NCBI GenBank assembly: GCA_902519405.1
Contig: CABYJX010000010.1
Coordinates: forward strand, 1 to 50,302
Source of the DNA: an uncultured Gammaproteobacteria bacterium
Lineage (GTDB): Bacteria; Pseudomonadota; Gammaproteobacteria; Pseudomonadales; Halieaceae
DNA: 50,302 nucleotides
Direction of reading: 5' to 3'
In this document: positions 18,018-31,753 of the stretch, in pieces
Layout of the letters: every line of letters begins with the position of its first letter
Position numbering within the stretch: position 1 is the first letter of the stretch
Position numbers and translations under genes: made by a program
The notes under the pieces: model-generated
Told to the model about the DNA's origin: nothing
The model's input: only the letters and a program-made list of their open reading frames with translations
Databases searched by the model: none

Positions 18018-18287
18018 CTACAAATTCTCAGGAGCATCGCCACGCAACCAATATACCCACGATAAAATAACAGCCACCGCAATATACAGCTCTTCGGGTA
18101 TTTCCTCATTTAATTCCAGGTTCATCAAAAGTCCAACTAAAGTAGGGTCGCTTGTAACAGGAATCCCTTGGGATATGGCATTTTGAATCATCGCTTCAGC
18201 AATCTCATAGTCCCCTTTTGCTATCACTCTTGGAGTAGAATTTTGCTCGTATTTTAGAGCGACAGCCTGCTTATCTGGGTCATCCAT
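18018..18287 (-). CDS. FlhX: stand-alone FlhB C-terminal-domain paralogue
   Basis: The 89-residue protein matches only the cytoplasmic C-terminal domain of FlhB: AVALKYEQNSTPRVIAKGDY (about residues 8-27), IPVTSDPTLVGLL and IPEELYIAVAVILSWVY. The membrane domain is absent and the sequence starts just after the position of the autocleavage motif. In FlhB, this region interacts with FliK during the switch from hook to filament export. It follows a FliK-like gene by 9 bases, resembling the ylqG-ylqH pair of Bacillus. The full FlhB is encoded at 30596-31753. Confidence 0.88.
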   Translation of the reverse strand: MDDPDKQAVALKYEQNSTPRVIAKGDYEIAEAMIQNAISQGIPVTSDPTLVGLLMNLELNEEIPEELYIAVAVILSWVYWLRGDAPENL

Positions 18288-26606: not shown

Positions 26607-27119
26607 ATGTCTCTTTTTTCAAGATCAAAGGGTAATCAGAGAGCCATGGCACAAGCCAAAGCAGAATTTGAAAAAATTCTCACGGCAATTAAAGAAGACA
26701 AACGTGTTGATAGGGCTCTTCGATCGAGAATTGCCTTCAGGACACGATCACACATTGACCAAACATTTATCGAAGGAGCAAAAAAAGCCGAAATTTATGA
26801 CCACCTTTGCTTGCAAGCAGTTGCAAAGGGAGAAACGAAACCTGAACCACCAGAACCAGCTCTATTTAAAGTAATAAAAACTAATACAGGTAACTTTTTT
26901 GCCTATCTCCCGAAGGAGCCAGCGAACAAGATATTCTTACTGGGCGGACTCTATCAGACCATGGAAATTTCTGGCGAGCAAGCGATTGAAAAAGTTCAAG
27001 CTATCGCTGATGAGATTTGGGAAGAACTGGGTGTTGCTCAGAGTTTAGAATGCCTCCGCTTTCTTGCCGCAGAATTGGGTCTAGAAGATGAAGAGGATGC
27101 AACAGAGCTCACAAGTTAA
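26607..27119 (+). CDS. Unrecognised soluble protein downstream of fliA
   Basis: The 170-residue protein has no signal peptide or membrane segment. The N-terminal 75 residues are basic and helical (MAQAKAEFEKILTAIKEDKR). A proline-rich hinge (about residues 79-85) leads to a mixed alpha/beta part (FKVIKTNTGNFFAYLPKEPA, then LGGLYQTMEI) and an acidic helical tail. I recognise no family. It is 22 bases after fliA and its stop overlaps the next start (TAATG), so it belongs to the flhA operon. Pseudomonas-like clusters have che genes here. Confidence 0.75.
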   Translation: MSLFSRSKGNQRAMAQAKAEFEKILTAIKEDKRVDRALRSRIAFRTRSHIDQTFIEGAKKAEIYDHLCLQAVAKGETKPEPPEPALFKVIKTNTGNFFAYLPKEPANKIFLLGGLYQTMEISGEQAIEKVQAIADEIWEELGVAQSLECLRFLAAELGLEDEEDATELTS

Positions 27120-27706
27120 TGTCACTAAGTTTCATACTAGCTCTGGCCACTGGCTTGGCAATAATCATCCTCCTACTTTATATTATCGGTCGCATGGGTA
27201 AGCTCGAGGAAGTAACAAGAACTATATTGCAGAGTAAAAACGAGGTGTCGAGAGAATCTAAATCAGGAAAGACAGGGAAGTCTCTTGAAAATAGCGAGGA
27301 TTTACAGGGAAAAGAATTATGGGATGCTTTGACTGGGAAAGGTGGCGATGTCAACGCAGAAAATATTGACTCTATTAGACAAAGATATGAGATCATCTTA
27401 AAAAAACATGTGCAAACTCTCCTTCAAGCGGGTTATGCAGACTCGCAGAGCGGTGGAATAAAAAAAAATCCAGGGAATTTAGATTCGATAAATACGCTCA
27501 GGGGCACCGTGCAATCATGGTTGCCTTCCGAACATTGCGCCGTGCTTTATAATTCGGGATATGAACTAGCCAATACAGATGAAAAAAGCGATCTGGACCG
27601 ATTAAGAATGAGCATCGATGATTCAATTGCTACTCTTTTTGATCAAGTGGATTTGCAGTTTCCCAGAGACTTTTCCCAGGGATTAATAAGCTCAATGATG
27701 GAATAA
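27119..27706 (+). CDS. Unrecognised single-span membrane protein
   Basis: The 195-residue protein has one N-terminal membrane helix (about residues 4-23, FILALATGLAIIILLLYIIG). A charged helical linker and a cytoplasmic-looking C-terminal region of about 120 residues (RQRYEIILKKHVQTLLQAGY) follow. The layout loosely recalls SwrB of Bacillus, also after the flagellar sigma factor gene, but I see no sequence match. It is start-stop coupled to the preceding gene. An A9 run at 27460-27468 lies in the coding region. It ends 16 bases from the convergent gene at 27723. Confidence 0.75.
   Translation: MSLSFILALATGLAIIILLLYIIGRMGKLEEVTRTILQSKNEVSRESKSGKTGKSLENSEDLQGKELWDALTGKGGDVNAENIDSIRQRYEIILKKHVQTLLQAGYADSQSGGIKKNPGNLDSINTLRGTVQSWLPSEHCAVLYNSGYELANTDEKSDLDRLRMSIDDSIATLFDQVDLQFPRDFSQGLISSMME
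27460..27468 (+). repeat. A9 homopolymer inside the single-span protein gene
   Basis: Nine A residues, read as the end of ATA then AAA-AAA-AA(T), lie at about codons 114-117 of the 195-residue gene. Runs of this length are prone to polymerase slippage. A one-base change would cut off roughly the last 80 residues. Confidence 0.6.
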
Positions 27707-27722
27707 CAGGAATTTTCGATTA

Positions 27723-28781
27723 CTAATCTGCCTCATACAAAACAATATCAGACGGCTCTTCAATTTCCACGCCTGCTTCTCTGTCGGCATTCTTTTTCTC
27801 TAATACATCAAGATATCTTTCCCTAGTTAATGTAACCAATGCCTCTACTTGATTTTCTAGGGAAGATAGCCCCGTCATTTTGCCCTGCATAGCACCTACA
27901 GTATTCGTGAGCCTTTTTATCGATCCCGACAAATCGGATACCGTACCGCGTTGGGTAGAAAGAGCCTTCTTAAGTTGATCTATCTCCTTATTCACTTCAC
28001 TAACCTCTGAAGAGACACTGGTCGCAGTAGCTACAGGTAGATCTGACTTAAGCTCTACCAAGGTATTGGACGCACCCATGACTACTTCCTCAAGGCCTTC
28101 ATATTTTAAAGAGGCGTTGGCCTGTTTCTCAGCGAGAATCCGGATATCAAATTGAAGCTCTTCAAAAAGCTCCAGACTTTGATTCATCTTGACCACTCGC
28201 TTGGTGACGGCCATGACCAATGCATCTACCTCTGAAACCCGTGAGGAAAGCTGGATTATCATAAAAATGAAGACCATGACAGCTACGGCCAGTACTGAGC
28301 TTACGGCAGCAAGTATGAGCTTGATTTGGTTAGACTGGCGAGCAAAAAGTAAGTTATTCCTTTCTAGTCTTCCATCTAGTTCAGTTTGTGTCAGAGATAA
28401 ACGCCTCATAGTGTTGAGGCTTGCTTCACTCGCTGTGGTAGACGCCTCAGCGGCATCAAGTGCTGTCGGTATTAGACCTTCTAGCTGGTTAATAACTTCA
28501 GCACCCGTCATTATAACTTCTGTCAACTCTTCTGACGGATTTGGTTCGTCTCCTTTCTGATGAGTTTCTTGACTATTGCCATCAGCAATTTCTTCAAGGG
28601 AGGAGTCAGTTTCCCCTGCAGCATCATCTCCCTGCGGACCCGAAGCTAGCTCTTCAGACTCCACCTCACCATCTGAAACTTCGGAACCTTCGTCCATTTC
28701 AGTGGCTTGTGTTTTCTGACTATCTATGCTCTCTTCAGTTTCAGAATCAGCGTCAACAACTTTTTCTTCTTCGTCCGCCAA
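27723..28781 (-). CDS. Unrecognised membrane protein with coiled coil
   Basis: A 352-residue protein in three parts. Residues 1-85 are very acidic and probably disordered (EEKVVDADSETEESIDSQ). A helical stretch leads to one membrane helix at about 154-178 (LILAAVSSVLAVAVMVFIFM). Residues about 180-330 form long amphipathic helices typical of coiled coil (VNKEIDQLKKALSTQRGTV). I do not recognise a family. It is the last gene of the fliE-flhB operon, 14 bases after the 106-residue gene. Topology suggests a membrane-anchored filament or scaffold; this is inference. Confidence 0.75.
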   Translation of the reverse strand: MADEEEKVVDADSETEESIDSQKTQATEMDEGSEVSDGEVESEELASGPQGDDAAGETDSSLEEIADGNSQETHQKGDEPNPSEELTEVIMTGAEVINQLEGLIPTALDAAEASTTASEASLNTMRRLSLTQTELDGRLERNNLLFARQSNQIKLILAAVSSVLAVAVMVFIFMIIQLSSRVSEVDALVMAVTKRVVKMNQSLELFEELQFDIRILAEKQANASLKYEGLEEVVMGASNTLVELKSDLPVATATSVSSEVSEVNKEIDQLKKALSTQRGTVSDLSGSIKRLTNTVGAMQGKMTGLSSLENQVEALVTLTRERYLDVLEKKNADREAGVEIEEPSDIVLYEAD

Positions 28782-28795
28782 AATGAACTCCTCTA

Positions 28796-29116
28796 TTACT
28801 TGCTACTGCCCAAGCTCTCCATTATAGAAGCTATCGAACTTCGTAATTTTCGTATGCGCTCAGCAAAAGGACGATCAGAACTACTCTTTGAAACTGAAAA
28901 ACGTGCTTTGCCATGCATCAACAACTCCACTGCAGTATCCGGATTGTCCCCTAAAGTTCTGGGCTCTTTGTCTTGCTCTACAACTTTTTCCGGATATGCA
29001 AGATAATCCGATTTTTCTGAGGTATCGGGACACTGTATTTTTTCAAGAGGATTTCCTGAAACACTCCCGATTGCCTCGCTTTCCCCAGACTTCCTATAGA
29101 TTTCACCTTCCGTCAT
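28796..29116 (-). CDS. Unrecognised small polar protein
   Basis: The 106-residue product is soluble and largely polar; the C-terminal 30 residues (FAERIRKLRSSIASIMESLG) could form an amphipathic helix. No family is recognised. Its start overlaps the end of the 498-residue gene by 14 bases and it precedes the coiled-coil gene by 14 bases. This tight overlap, rather than its own sequence, is the main reason to call it a gene. Confidence 0.6.
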   Translation of the reverse strand: MTEGEIYRKSGESEAIGSVSGNPLEKIQCPDTSEKSDYLAYPEKVVEQDKEPRTLGDNPDTAVELLMHGKARFSVSKSSSDRPFAERIRKLRSSIASIMESLGSSK

Positions 29117-30599
29117 CTTCCACCTCGGAAGGTACTCTGGAAACTATATATTCTCCCCTTACTATCACAACATCGGCAGTGGCTTCATTTTCTTTAGCAA
29201 CATTCATAGCATCATCGCGCGTAGCGTAAGGTCCAGAAAAAACCACATGCCAAAGCTTTGTTTGCGAAAACTGTGGCAATGAGAACGTTGTCGAAAAATC
29301 AGCAAAGATCTCTGTTGCTGCTGTACTTGCTGCAATCTGTGAAGAAAGGGCAGCATGCTGCAGGTAAAAAGCAGCGGGATCAATCGAGTTATCTAGTTGA
29401 TCTTTTTTTGACTCCTCATCAACTTTTTCCTCCAGAATTTGTTTATAAGGCTCTTCAATCTCATTAGTATTATCTGAGAGTGGAACTTCATCTACGATGA
29501 TTGATGATGCAATATCTTCTTCAATCATTACAGATTCCTCTTTGAACTCAGTCTCAGTTGATAGGTTGTCGGCACTTATCTCCTCAACTATTGGCTCTAC
29601 AAAATCTTCTTCACCGGTAGACTCTAACACCTGCATGGAATTCTCATTAGACGGCAAGGAATCGTTCTCTACTTCCTTTTCAATCAAAGAACCCGATAAA
29701 TTGTCAAGGCTATCGTCAATTATCTCTACCTCGCTTTCCTGAGCTAATGCGGCATCGTCGCTACTATTATCAATTGCTCTATCGGCTACTTTAAAATCAG
29801 CAGCGTTCTCGTCATTTAATTGATAAGCAACTCCAAAGGCGACAATCAAGATGAGTGCAAAAGTAAAAGACAGAAACTTGTTAAATTTCCTTTTCCCGGT
29901 AACTTCAGCCGAAACATCTATGCTCTCTTCATCAGAATATCCTGATGTCCGGTCTATCTCTAAATCCGATCCCGTGATTCCAAGCGCGGCTAATTTTTTC
30001 TTATTGTGAGAATGATAGGGAGTGAGAGAAGACGCATCTAGAAAACTTACCAGTTCCCGTGCATCTGGAAAATTGCAGTAACATCGTGTTAAACGAGAAC
30101 CTAGGAGTTTGAAAAATGCTTCCACTTCTTGATTAAAAGGTTCTTCGCATATGATTAGCAAACCGCAATTTGCTCCGGGAAAATCAATCAGCAATCTAGC
30201 CAATAAGTCCCACTCGTTTTTTGCCATTCCAGTACAGTCACTGATAACTAGAATTTTTCTGTGTAACTCCGAATCGGTCGCAATTTTTGCCGCATTGACG
30301 CTAATATCCTTGAGACGCTTGTTGTAAAAGTCTAAAAGCGCGTCTGTAGTTACAGAAAAAAAGACCTCTAGTTGATAGCGATCGCTTTCCTTTAATTTTG
30401 CATACAAATATTCAAAATAATAATTAAGCAAATCCACTCTTGGTCCACATAACGCCACATATGGGTTATCCTCAGATAGGCGCCCTGAAATAGATCTTAT
30501 TTGTATCTTGTCCTGCTCCCGCAAAAACAACATATCACCGTCCATCCAACTATCTATGGATTTGATATGTCGTTGATTGTCTATATCAGAGTTGTTCAT
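29103..30599 (-). CDS. DamX-like membrane protein with SPOR-like C-terminus
   Basis: The 498-residue product has the layout of DamX/GspA-type proteins. Residues about 20-190 look like an AAA-type nucleotide-binding domain that has lost its Walker A lysine (ALCGPRVDLL where GxxGxGKT is expected; strand KILVISDC where Walker B is expected). A membrane helix follows at about 241-261 (LSFTFALILIVAFGVAYQL), then an acidic linker of about 190 residues and a SPOR-like end (KLWHVVFSGPYATRDDAMNV). SPOR domains bind denuded septal peptidoglycan. The start overlaps flhB as ATGA, so translation is coupled. The family call is by pattern only. Confidence 0.75.
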   Translation of the reverse strand: MNNSDIDNQRHIKSIDSWMDGDMLFLREQDKIQIRSISGRLSEDNPYVALCGPRVDLLNYYFEYLYAKLKESDRYQLEVFFSVTTDALLDFYNKRLKDISVNAAKIATDSELHRKILVISDCTGMAKNEWDLLARLLIDFPGANCGLLIICEEPFNQEVEAFFKLLGSRLTRCYCNFPDARELVSFLDASSLTPYHSHNKKKLAALGITGSDLEIDRTSGYSDEESIDVSAEVTGKRKFNKFLSFTFALILIVAFGVAYQLNDENAADFKVADRAIDNSSDDAALAQESEVEIIDDSLDNLSGSLIEKEVENDSLPSNENSMQVLESTGEEDFVEPIVEEISADNLSTETEFKEESVMIEEDIASSIIVDEVPLSDNTNEIEEPYKQILEEKVDEESKKDQLDNSIDPAAFYLQHAALSSQIAASTAATEIFADFSTTFSLPQFSQTKLWHVVFSGPYATRDDAMNVAKENEATADVVIVRGEYIVSRVPSEVEDDGR

Positions 30600-31753
30600 T
30601 GAATAACTTCATCCCTTAATTTACCTGTTTCGTCGAAATCCAGTTCTGGCGGCACTTTGGGCTTAGGACGCTGATATTCTCCAGTGGCACTGAATGTTCC
30701 AATAGAAAATACGTAAGCTATTACCTGGGCTACCGCGTGATATAGTGGCTCTGGAATAAAACTGCCGACGTCAGTAGTAAAATACAGAGCTCTAGCCAAT
30801 GGTGGAGCCTCGAAAAGGGAAATACCTTCCTGTGTGGCTCTATCACGAATACGTAAAGCCATGAAGTCCGCTCCCCTCGCAACTACTCTGGGTGGATCAC
30901 TGCCGTTGGGATCATAAGCAAGAGCTACCGCAAAATGTTCTGGATTAGTTACAACGACATCGGCGGTAGGCAAAGCTTCAAGCATTGATTGCATTGCCAT
31001 ATCTCGCTGTCGTTGCTTTATACGAGCTCGAACCTCCGGCTGGCCCTCCATTTCTTTACGCTCATCTTTGACCTCTTGTTTGGTCATTTTCATGCGATTT
31101 GTGAAAGAAATTATCTGATAGGGCACATCTACTAACGCCACTAACACAAGGCTTATAGAAACAAATAACATTCCAAGTGAGAGCATTTCGGCAGCGCTTT
31201 CAATTGCGGGGTTCATCGCCATTACTGATAGATAAATGAAATCTTTAGCATAGATTGTATAGACGATAAATAATGAGGACCCTATAAGAAGGAATTTCAA
31301 AACCGCCTTAGCTAATTCTATAAGTGCCTTAGTCCCAAATATTCTCTTAAATCCATTTATAAGGCTTAACTTGGAAAGCTTGGGAGCAGCAGCCTTGAAA
31401 GAAAATATAAATCCTCCCAACGTGGCTGAAGGAATAATAGCTAAAATAATAGTCAGCACTAGTATTGGTGCAATGACCCAAAATCCCTCTCTTAGCTCTG
31501 TGCCGACAAGACCAGAAAATAATTGATCAGAAAAGATCATTCTCCTGTCAAGTACAAAACCTCTTGCAAATACATCCAGTAGGGAGTCTATTAACTCCCC
31601 ACCAAATACATACATAGTTATTACGACCATCATCACCATAACCGCGACATTTAAATCCTGAGAACGGATGGCCTCACCCTCTTCCCTTGCTTTCTCAAGA
31701 CGCTTCGCTGTCGGTTCTTCTGTTTTATCTTCCTGCGGACTCTCTTCAGCCAT
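30596..31753 (-). CDS. flhB: Flagellar export switch protein FlhB
   Basis: FlhB sits in the export gate and switches substrate class after self-cleavage. The 385-residue product starts with DKTEEPTAKRLEKAREEGEA (about residues 9-28), has four membrane helices, and a cytoplasmic domain with the cleavage region VVVTNPEHFAVAL (about 261-273); most FlhB proteins have NPTH there, this one has NPEH. A C-terminal tail (EYQRPKPKVPPELDF) follows. It is 2 bases after fliR and overlaps the DamX-like gene by 4 bases. The paralogous C-terminal domain is flhX at 18018. Confidence 0.96.
   Translation of the reverse strand: MAEESPQEDKTEEPTAKRLEKAREEGEAIRSQDLNVAVMVMMVVITMYVFGGELIDSLLDVFARGFVLDRRMIFSDQLFSGLVGTELREGFWVIAPILVLTIILAIIPSATLGGFIFSFKAAAPKLSKLSLINGFKRIFGTKALIELAKAVLKFLLIGSSLFIVYTIYAKDFIYLSVMAMNPAIESAAEMLSLGMLFVSISLVLVALVDVPYQIISFTNRMKMTKQEVKDERKEMEGQPEVRARIKQRQRDMAMQSMLEALPTADVVVTNPEHFAVALAYDPNGSDPPRVVARGADFMALRIRDRATQEGISLFEAPPLARALYFTTDVGSFIPEPLYHAVAQVIAYVFSIGTFSATGEYQRPKPKVPPELDFDETGKLRDEVIQ

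Follow-up and report, generated by a model that had tools for sequence, protein, structure and literature searches.

The gene directly downstream of flhB in the window, a stretch of 50,302 nucleotides on contig CABYJX010000010.1 of an uncultured member of the Halieaceae, encodes a bitopic protein that joins an AAA+-fold domain without a Walker A motif to a C-terminal SPOR domain. We confirmed the open reading frame, the domain architecture and the adjacency to flhB as first described. We give an even chance to the reading that this protein is a DamX-derived inner-membrane scaffold, that it is a fixed part of one flagellar lineage, and that its SPOR domain guides assembly to the septum or pole. 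The way in which flagella governed by FlhF and FlhG locate the new pole is understood only in part. If the reading holds, denuded septal glycan would be a direct, testable chemical mark of the future flagellar pole, and a division protein would have lost its ATPase motif on being taken into a machine for motility.

Architecture of the protein encoded after flhB

The frame is intact, opens with ATG and codes for 498 residues (Table 1). At its junction with flhB, the sense strand reads GTT ATT CAA TGA overlapping ATG AAC AAC, so that four bases are common to both genes. The same overlap is present in L001, from the congeneric genome G006, which supplied the sole close full-length homolog found (68-69% identity). 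In G003 the two genes overlap by 8 nt, and at the remaining measured loci flhB is separated from the gene, on the same strand, by a gap of 6-136 nt. Translational coupling to flhB, as originally predicted, thus stands in part: the link to flhB is conserved, but the overlap of stop and start is confined to the genus of the window and to G003. The source genome is 60% complete, and gene absences in it were disregarded for that reason.

Table 1 Features of the flhB-linked gene, its neighbors and its non-flagellar relatives (window coordinates unless a locus is named)
Feature	Position	Strand	Evidence or remark
Bitopic protein, 498 aa: AAA+-fold N-domain, membrane helix, disordered acidic linker, SPOR	29103..30599	-	
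AAA+-fold domain without Walker A, residues 13-224	29928..30563	-	AF2 pLDDT about 80-94; Z about 11-12.6 against AAA+ chains; hhalign to DamX AAA
ALCGPRVDLL at the P-loop position, residues 49-58	30426..30455	-	aligned to DamX P-loop region YGAEGVGKTS
Single membrane helix, residues 238-268	29796..29888	-	AF2 model; hydropathy gives 239-262
Disordered acidic linker, residues 269-393	29421..29795	-	38 D+E versus 6 K+R
SPOR domain (beta-alpha-beta-beta-alpha-beta), residues 411-481	29157..29369	-	Pfam; AF2; Q414 kept; beta4 Trp lost
flhB, upstream neighbor	30596..31753	-	Pfam PF01312 1e-114; TIGR00328 above cut-off
ATGA, flhB stop TGA overlapping SPOR-gene start ATG	30596..30599	-	also in L001
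Small gene, 106 aa, 14-nt overlap with SPOR gene	28796..29116	-	110-170 aa counterparts in several other carriers
Protein of 352 aa, membrane helix and coiled coil, next module gene	27723..28781	-	17-84% identity over four families
Protein of 195 aa, N-terminal membrane helix, convergent	27119..27706	+	25-81% identity, 12 invariant columns
Soluble protein of 170 aa between fliA and the 195-aa gene	26607..27119	+	conserved
SPOR form at a non-flagellar locus	L021 7479-9815	+	
SPOR form at a non-flagellar locus	L022 8274-10112	+	

The AF2 model of the whole protein, for which inputs comprised 26-29 sequences, contains a folded N-terminal domain (13-224), the membrane helix (238-268) and a folded end (395-490), with a disordered linker between. 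The modeled N-domain has beta strands at residues 47-52, 75-80, 114-119, 145-152 and 170-174 with helices between them and shows the AAA+ core fold. When it was compared with solved structures (Foldseek, VIA-align), AAA+ proteins appeared throughout the listed matches, the best reaching Z 12.6 with an rmsd of 5.6 over 187 aligned residues. This likeness is at the level of the AAA+ superfamily rather than of DamX specifically; no solved structure of a DamX AAA domain was found. The original prediction had placed a degenerate AAA domain at residues 20-190, and both profile and structure agree with it: the model of the N-terminal part matched AAA+ proteins instead of an unrelated fold, and the P-loop position does carry ALCGPRVDLL and lacks Gly-Lys-Thr. 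Single-sequence searches with the N-domain gave no match in Pfam, NCBIfam or the PDB sequences, and weak matches of its profile to the PDB (a designed protein and UvrA) were judged to be due to chance.

The Walker A motif GxxxxGK[ST] was found in the N-domain of none of the 28 family members, and loss of the P-loop is universal among them. The N-domain might still be an active ATPase that uses a non-standard nucleotide motif, a reading that would fit the confidently predicted AAA+ fold and the acidic residue often retained at the end of the Walker B strand (the D of ILVISD in the window). However, Gly-Lys-Ser/Thr is missing in 28 of 28 members, no conserved lysine stands at that position, and the Walker B region is variable too; we consider such activity highly improbable.

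Hydropathy and the AF2 model agree on one clear membrane helix, and the long acidic linker is likewise present as foreseen. The stretch GKRKFNK directly precedes the helix, and by the positive-inside rule the N-terminus is probably cytoplasmic.

The SPOR-like end was identified as a true SPOR domain. Residues 408-469 match PF05036 (E=2.7e-6, 28.1 bits against a curated cut-off of 21 bits). Because the fold search with the whole protein listed no SPOR chains, the last 109 residues were modeled separately with AF2 and gave the beta-alpha-beta-beta-alpha-beta (RNP-like) fold. SPOR structures are the top matches of this model, led by RlpA (6i09 and 6i05; Z 8.7, rmsd 2.3-2.4, 72-74 aligned residues) and followed by CwlC (Z 7.0) and DamX (2lfv, Z 6.4). 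The beta1 glutamine (Q414 in the window) is invariant in all 26 rows of the family alignment; in RlpA its equivalent makes contact with denuded glycan, and in DamX the equivalent is required for septal localization (PMC6895207). The tryptophan equivalent to DamX W416 in beta4, one of three residues needed for that localization (PMC6895207), is replaced in the window and in the congeneric locus L001; it is kept in most relatives. SPOR domains favor denuded glycan over intact wall (PMC6895207), and the identity of the domain, together with its invariant glutamine, suggests that it binds denuded glycan.

Relation to DamX

In E. coli, DamX acts in cell division and is not known to have a flagellar role. 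For comparison we assembled DamX proteins encoded beside aroB in seven further families of this order. Two of these proteins were scanned, and both carry AAA_22 and SPOR. The P-loop is retained in nearly all of these proteins, the G-K pair being conserved in most rows. The C-terminal half of the family matches the DamX profile at 97.8% (E=1.1e-12), an alignment that covers the DamX-type W-x-R tail of other members, and the best match of the family profile in the PDB is the SPOR domain of E. coli DamX (2lfv, E=0.0017).

In hhalign, the N-domain and the DamX AAA domain align collinearly (71.6-81.4%); the P-loop region of DamX falls on VALCGPRVDLLNYY, and its Walker B strand falls on ILVISDCTGM. 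As controls, 30 column shuffles gave at most 0.4% and a reversed control 0.2%, and the profiles of FlhF, FlhG, AroK, AroB, FliA and FlhB gave at most 1%. Against the aroB-linked AAA proteins of family f15 alone, the N-domain profile reached 0.3%, yet these proteins match DamX well, so it is the whole DamX set that carries the link to DamX. The match is moderate and points to remote homology.

The family thus has the domain order of DamX (an AAA-type cytoplasmic domain, AAA_22 in DamX, then a membrane helix, a long linker and a C-terminal SPOR domain), the W-x-R tail in other members, and a remotely homologous AAA domain. It differs from DamX in that none of the 28 members has an intact Walker A motif, in its place in the flagellar operon next to flhB rather than in the aroB-gltB interval, and in having SPOR-less short forms. 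We conclude that these proteins descend remotely from DamX and have lost Walker A; given the missing motif and the different location, we call them DamX-derived rather than DamX. The description of the protein as DamX-like holds up well, since the domain order is collinear, both domains appear remotely homologous by profile and the SPOR model matches the solved DamX structure.

The Halieaceae examined at this site (G001, G003, G004, G007, G010, G011) have no damX in the interval from aroB to gltB, and the same is true of the f41 genomes G293, G353 and G507; aroB was not detected in the window's own genome. In L032-L035, L083, L096, L078, L080 and L089, which represent Halieaceae and most f41 genomes checked, gltB directly follows aroB without damX. 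In f15, aroB is followed by a shortened, 272-aa relative of DamX (L085 2529-3347 (+); L086 668-1486 (-); L093 674-1492 (-)) that keeps the P-loop and the membrane helix and has no SPOR domain, with an AAA_22 match in L085. A reciprocal split is therefore seen in f15, where the aroB-linked protein has the P-loop without SPOR and the flhB-linked protein has SPOR without the P-loop.

A conserved block in one flagellar lineage

Among 140 Halieaceae genomes, 64 have flhB and 18 carry the N-domain family; in 17 of these 18, a copy is the next gene after flhB and has the same orientation. Another 19 carriers were found in three other families of the order (E 1e-32 to 7e-9), mostly with forms of about 490-620 aa that have a SPOR-like end; flhB is directly upstream on the same strand in all except G431, whose contig begins at the gene. 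Elsewhere in the class, no member was confirmed among 369 genomes, and the sole match besides the window in the class-wide search (G554, E=4e-4), which sits in a sensor-kinase-like gene, was dismissed. Genome completeness varies, and absences in less complete genomes are weak evidence. Chance adjacency was rejected because the adjacency to flhB recurs in four families. In relatives that have flhB without the gene, flhA comes next after flhB wherever the frame is clear. On the FlhB tree, the 29 carrier rows lie on one side of a branch with support 100/100, which gives the family one origin on this tree and marks a distinct flagellar lineage.

The SPOR gene lies in a block beside flhA-flhF-flhG-fliA and is accompanied by three to four other uncharacterized genes. 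In the window, f15 and f41, the order is fliQ-fliR-flhB, the pseudo-AAA SPOR gene, a small gene and the gene for a membrane coiled-coil protein, convergent with genes for a membrane protein of 195-246 aa and a protein of 169-182 aa followed by fliA-flhG-flhF. G492 has the block without an evident small gene, and in f40 the SPOR, coiled-coil and 217-aa genes are consecutive on one strand. The coiled-coil proteins and the 195-aa proteins can each be aligned over all four families. None of the uncharacterized neighbors matched Pfam or NCBIfam at the curated cut-offs, and the 195-aa protein showed no DUF2802 and no Pfam match up to E 1. Because this block of uncharacterized genes is conserved, we treat the SPOR protein as a member of a flagellar accessory module. 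The flhF and flhG genes suggest that carriers have polar flagella. A second short FlhB-like frame in the window, at 18042-18278 (-), matches the C-terminal part of FlhB only (about 80 residues), and similar frames occur in G006, G001, G003 and G011.

Not all flhB-linked copies have a SPOR domain. In G001 and G002 (genus g2) and in g21, the copies examined have a length of about 269-325 aa and end shortly after the membrane region; the N-domain and membrane helix are kept, and SPOR is absent from every one. The small gene is also absent in these lineages. The short copies represented on the FlhB tree form one clade (100/98), which fits a single loss of SPOR. A SPOR form of 600 aa lies at flhB in G003, which also belongs to g2. 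SPOR would therefore not be required wherever the module works. G001 and G004 also have a SPOR form of 612-619 aa away from flagellar genes, near his genes. In G004, which is 97% complete, flhA and flhB were not detected and the full-length protein is kept, so that the long form seems able to persist without flagellar export genes. SPOR-containing frames of 570-780 aa also occur in G009, G010 and G011, none of them linked to flhB. Near the orphan SPOR gene of G001, a gene for a large TPR-like protein (L022 13245-15680 (-)) lies beside a flagellin-like gene. In L021, from G004, the gene next to the SPOR form encodes an OmpA-type wall-binding domain; the start of its product is similar to that of the coiled-coil gene product in L020, which would suit a remnant of a lost flagellar block.

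These distributions bear on whether the protein is simply a relocated DamX that still does ordinary division work and merely travels in a flagellar operon. The architecture common to DamX and the family, the lack of damX at aroB in the Halieaceae and f41 genomes named above, and the protein retained by G004 would all agree with such a relocation. However, G010 and G011 have flagellar genes and neither damX at aroB nor a family gene, so the family gene is not filling an obligatory gap; on the same ground, we reject the idea that the gene is there solely to compensate for a missing DamX. In addition, nearly all carriers have flhB, and the adjacency is kept over large sequence distances, whereas SPOR, the septal part of DamX, is lost in a sub-lineage that keeps the remainder, and the P-loop kept in DamX is lost in the family. 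We regard a mere relocation as unlikely.

A second alternative takes the protein as a structural part of the motor, in which SPOR would tether the stator or the basal body to peptidoglycan with no role in the choice of pole. Wall anchoring of this kind is familiar from the OmpA-like domain of MotB. The long linker that ends in a wall-binding domain, the co-conserved membrane coiled-coil partner and the OmpA-type domain encoded beside the orphan copy of G004 are compatible with a motor anchor. We nevertheless find this improbable as well, as a SPOR-less sub-lineage exists and the preference of SPOR domains is for denuded glycan, not intact wall (PMC6895207).

Proposed role and comparison with known systems

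As a conserved part of a distinct flagellar lineage, the DamX-derived scaffold may link flagellum building to the new pole. The N-domain, predicted to be cytoplasmic and to bind no ATP in the usual way, would act as a docking platform for FlhB, for FlhF/FlhG or for the neighboring uncharacterized proteins. SPOR would bind the peptide-free glycan left by amidases at the closing septum, which is the future new pole, and the protein would thereby concentrate early flagellar parts at the nascent pole, where the basal body could be built into new wall. There is a precedent in type IV pilus machines, which are recruited to future division sites via the AMIN domains of PilQ (PMC5285504). The original suggestion, by which a SPOR protein would couple the assembly of flagella to a fresh pole, is plausible, but it is complicated by the sub-lineage that lost SPOR and kept the rest, and by G004, which has the protein and no detectable flhA or flhB; the tryptophan missing from the window and its congener also speaks against it. 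In a more far-reaching form, which we put forward only tentatively, a module of four to five genes (for the pseudo-AAA SPOR protein, the small protein, the membrane coiled-coil protein and the convergent 195-aa and 170-aa proteins) would define a distinct flagellar lineage. Its SPOR protein, derived from cell division, would read the mark in the septal wall and install the flagellum in advance at the nascent pole.

The proposed logic is that of PilQ, where an envelope machine is directed to the pole-to-be by a domain that binds the wall, but the protein family and the machine are different, and what is experimental for PilQ is a prediction for the SPOR protein (PMC5285504). RlpA, FtsN and DedD share the SPOR fold and the conserved beta1 glutamine, whereas they have no AAA-type cytoplasmic domain and are not flagellar. 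No paper in the literature searched treats flhB and a SPOR domain together, and a link of this kind between septum and flagellum appears, as far as that literature shows, to be previously undescribed. FipA and HubP/FimV, which are placement factors of polar flagella, are also membrane proteins tied to FlhF/FlhG flagella. HubP/FimV bind peptidoglycan as well, but by LysM, and combine LysM with TPR where the present family has SPOR and AAA; FipA has a single DUF2802 domain after an N-terminal membrane helix and lacks any part that binds the wall (PMC11620751; PMC12918733). The gene for the 195-aa protein has a FipA-like placement in the window, downstream of flhA-flhF-flhG-fliA.
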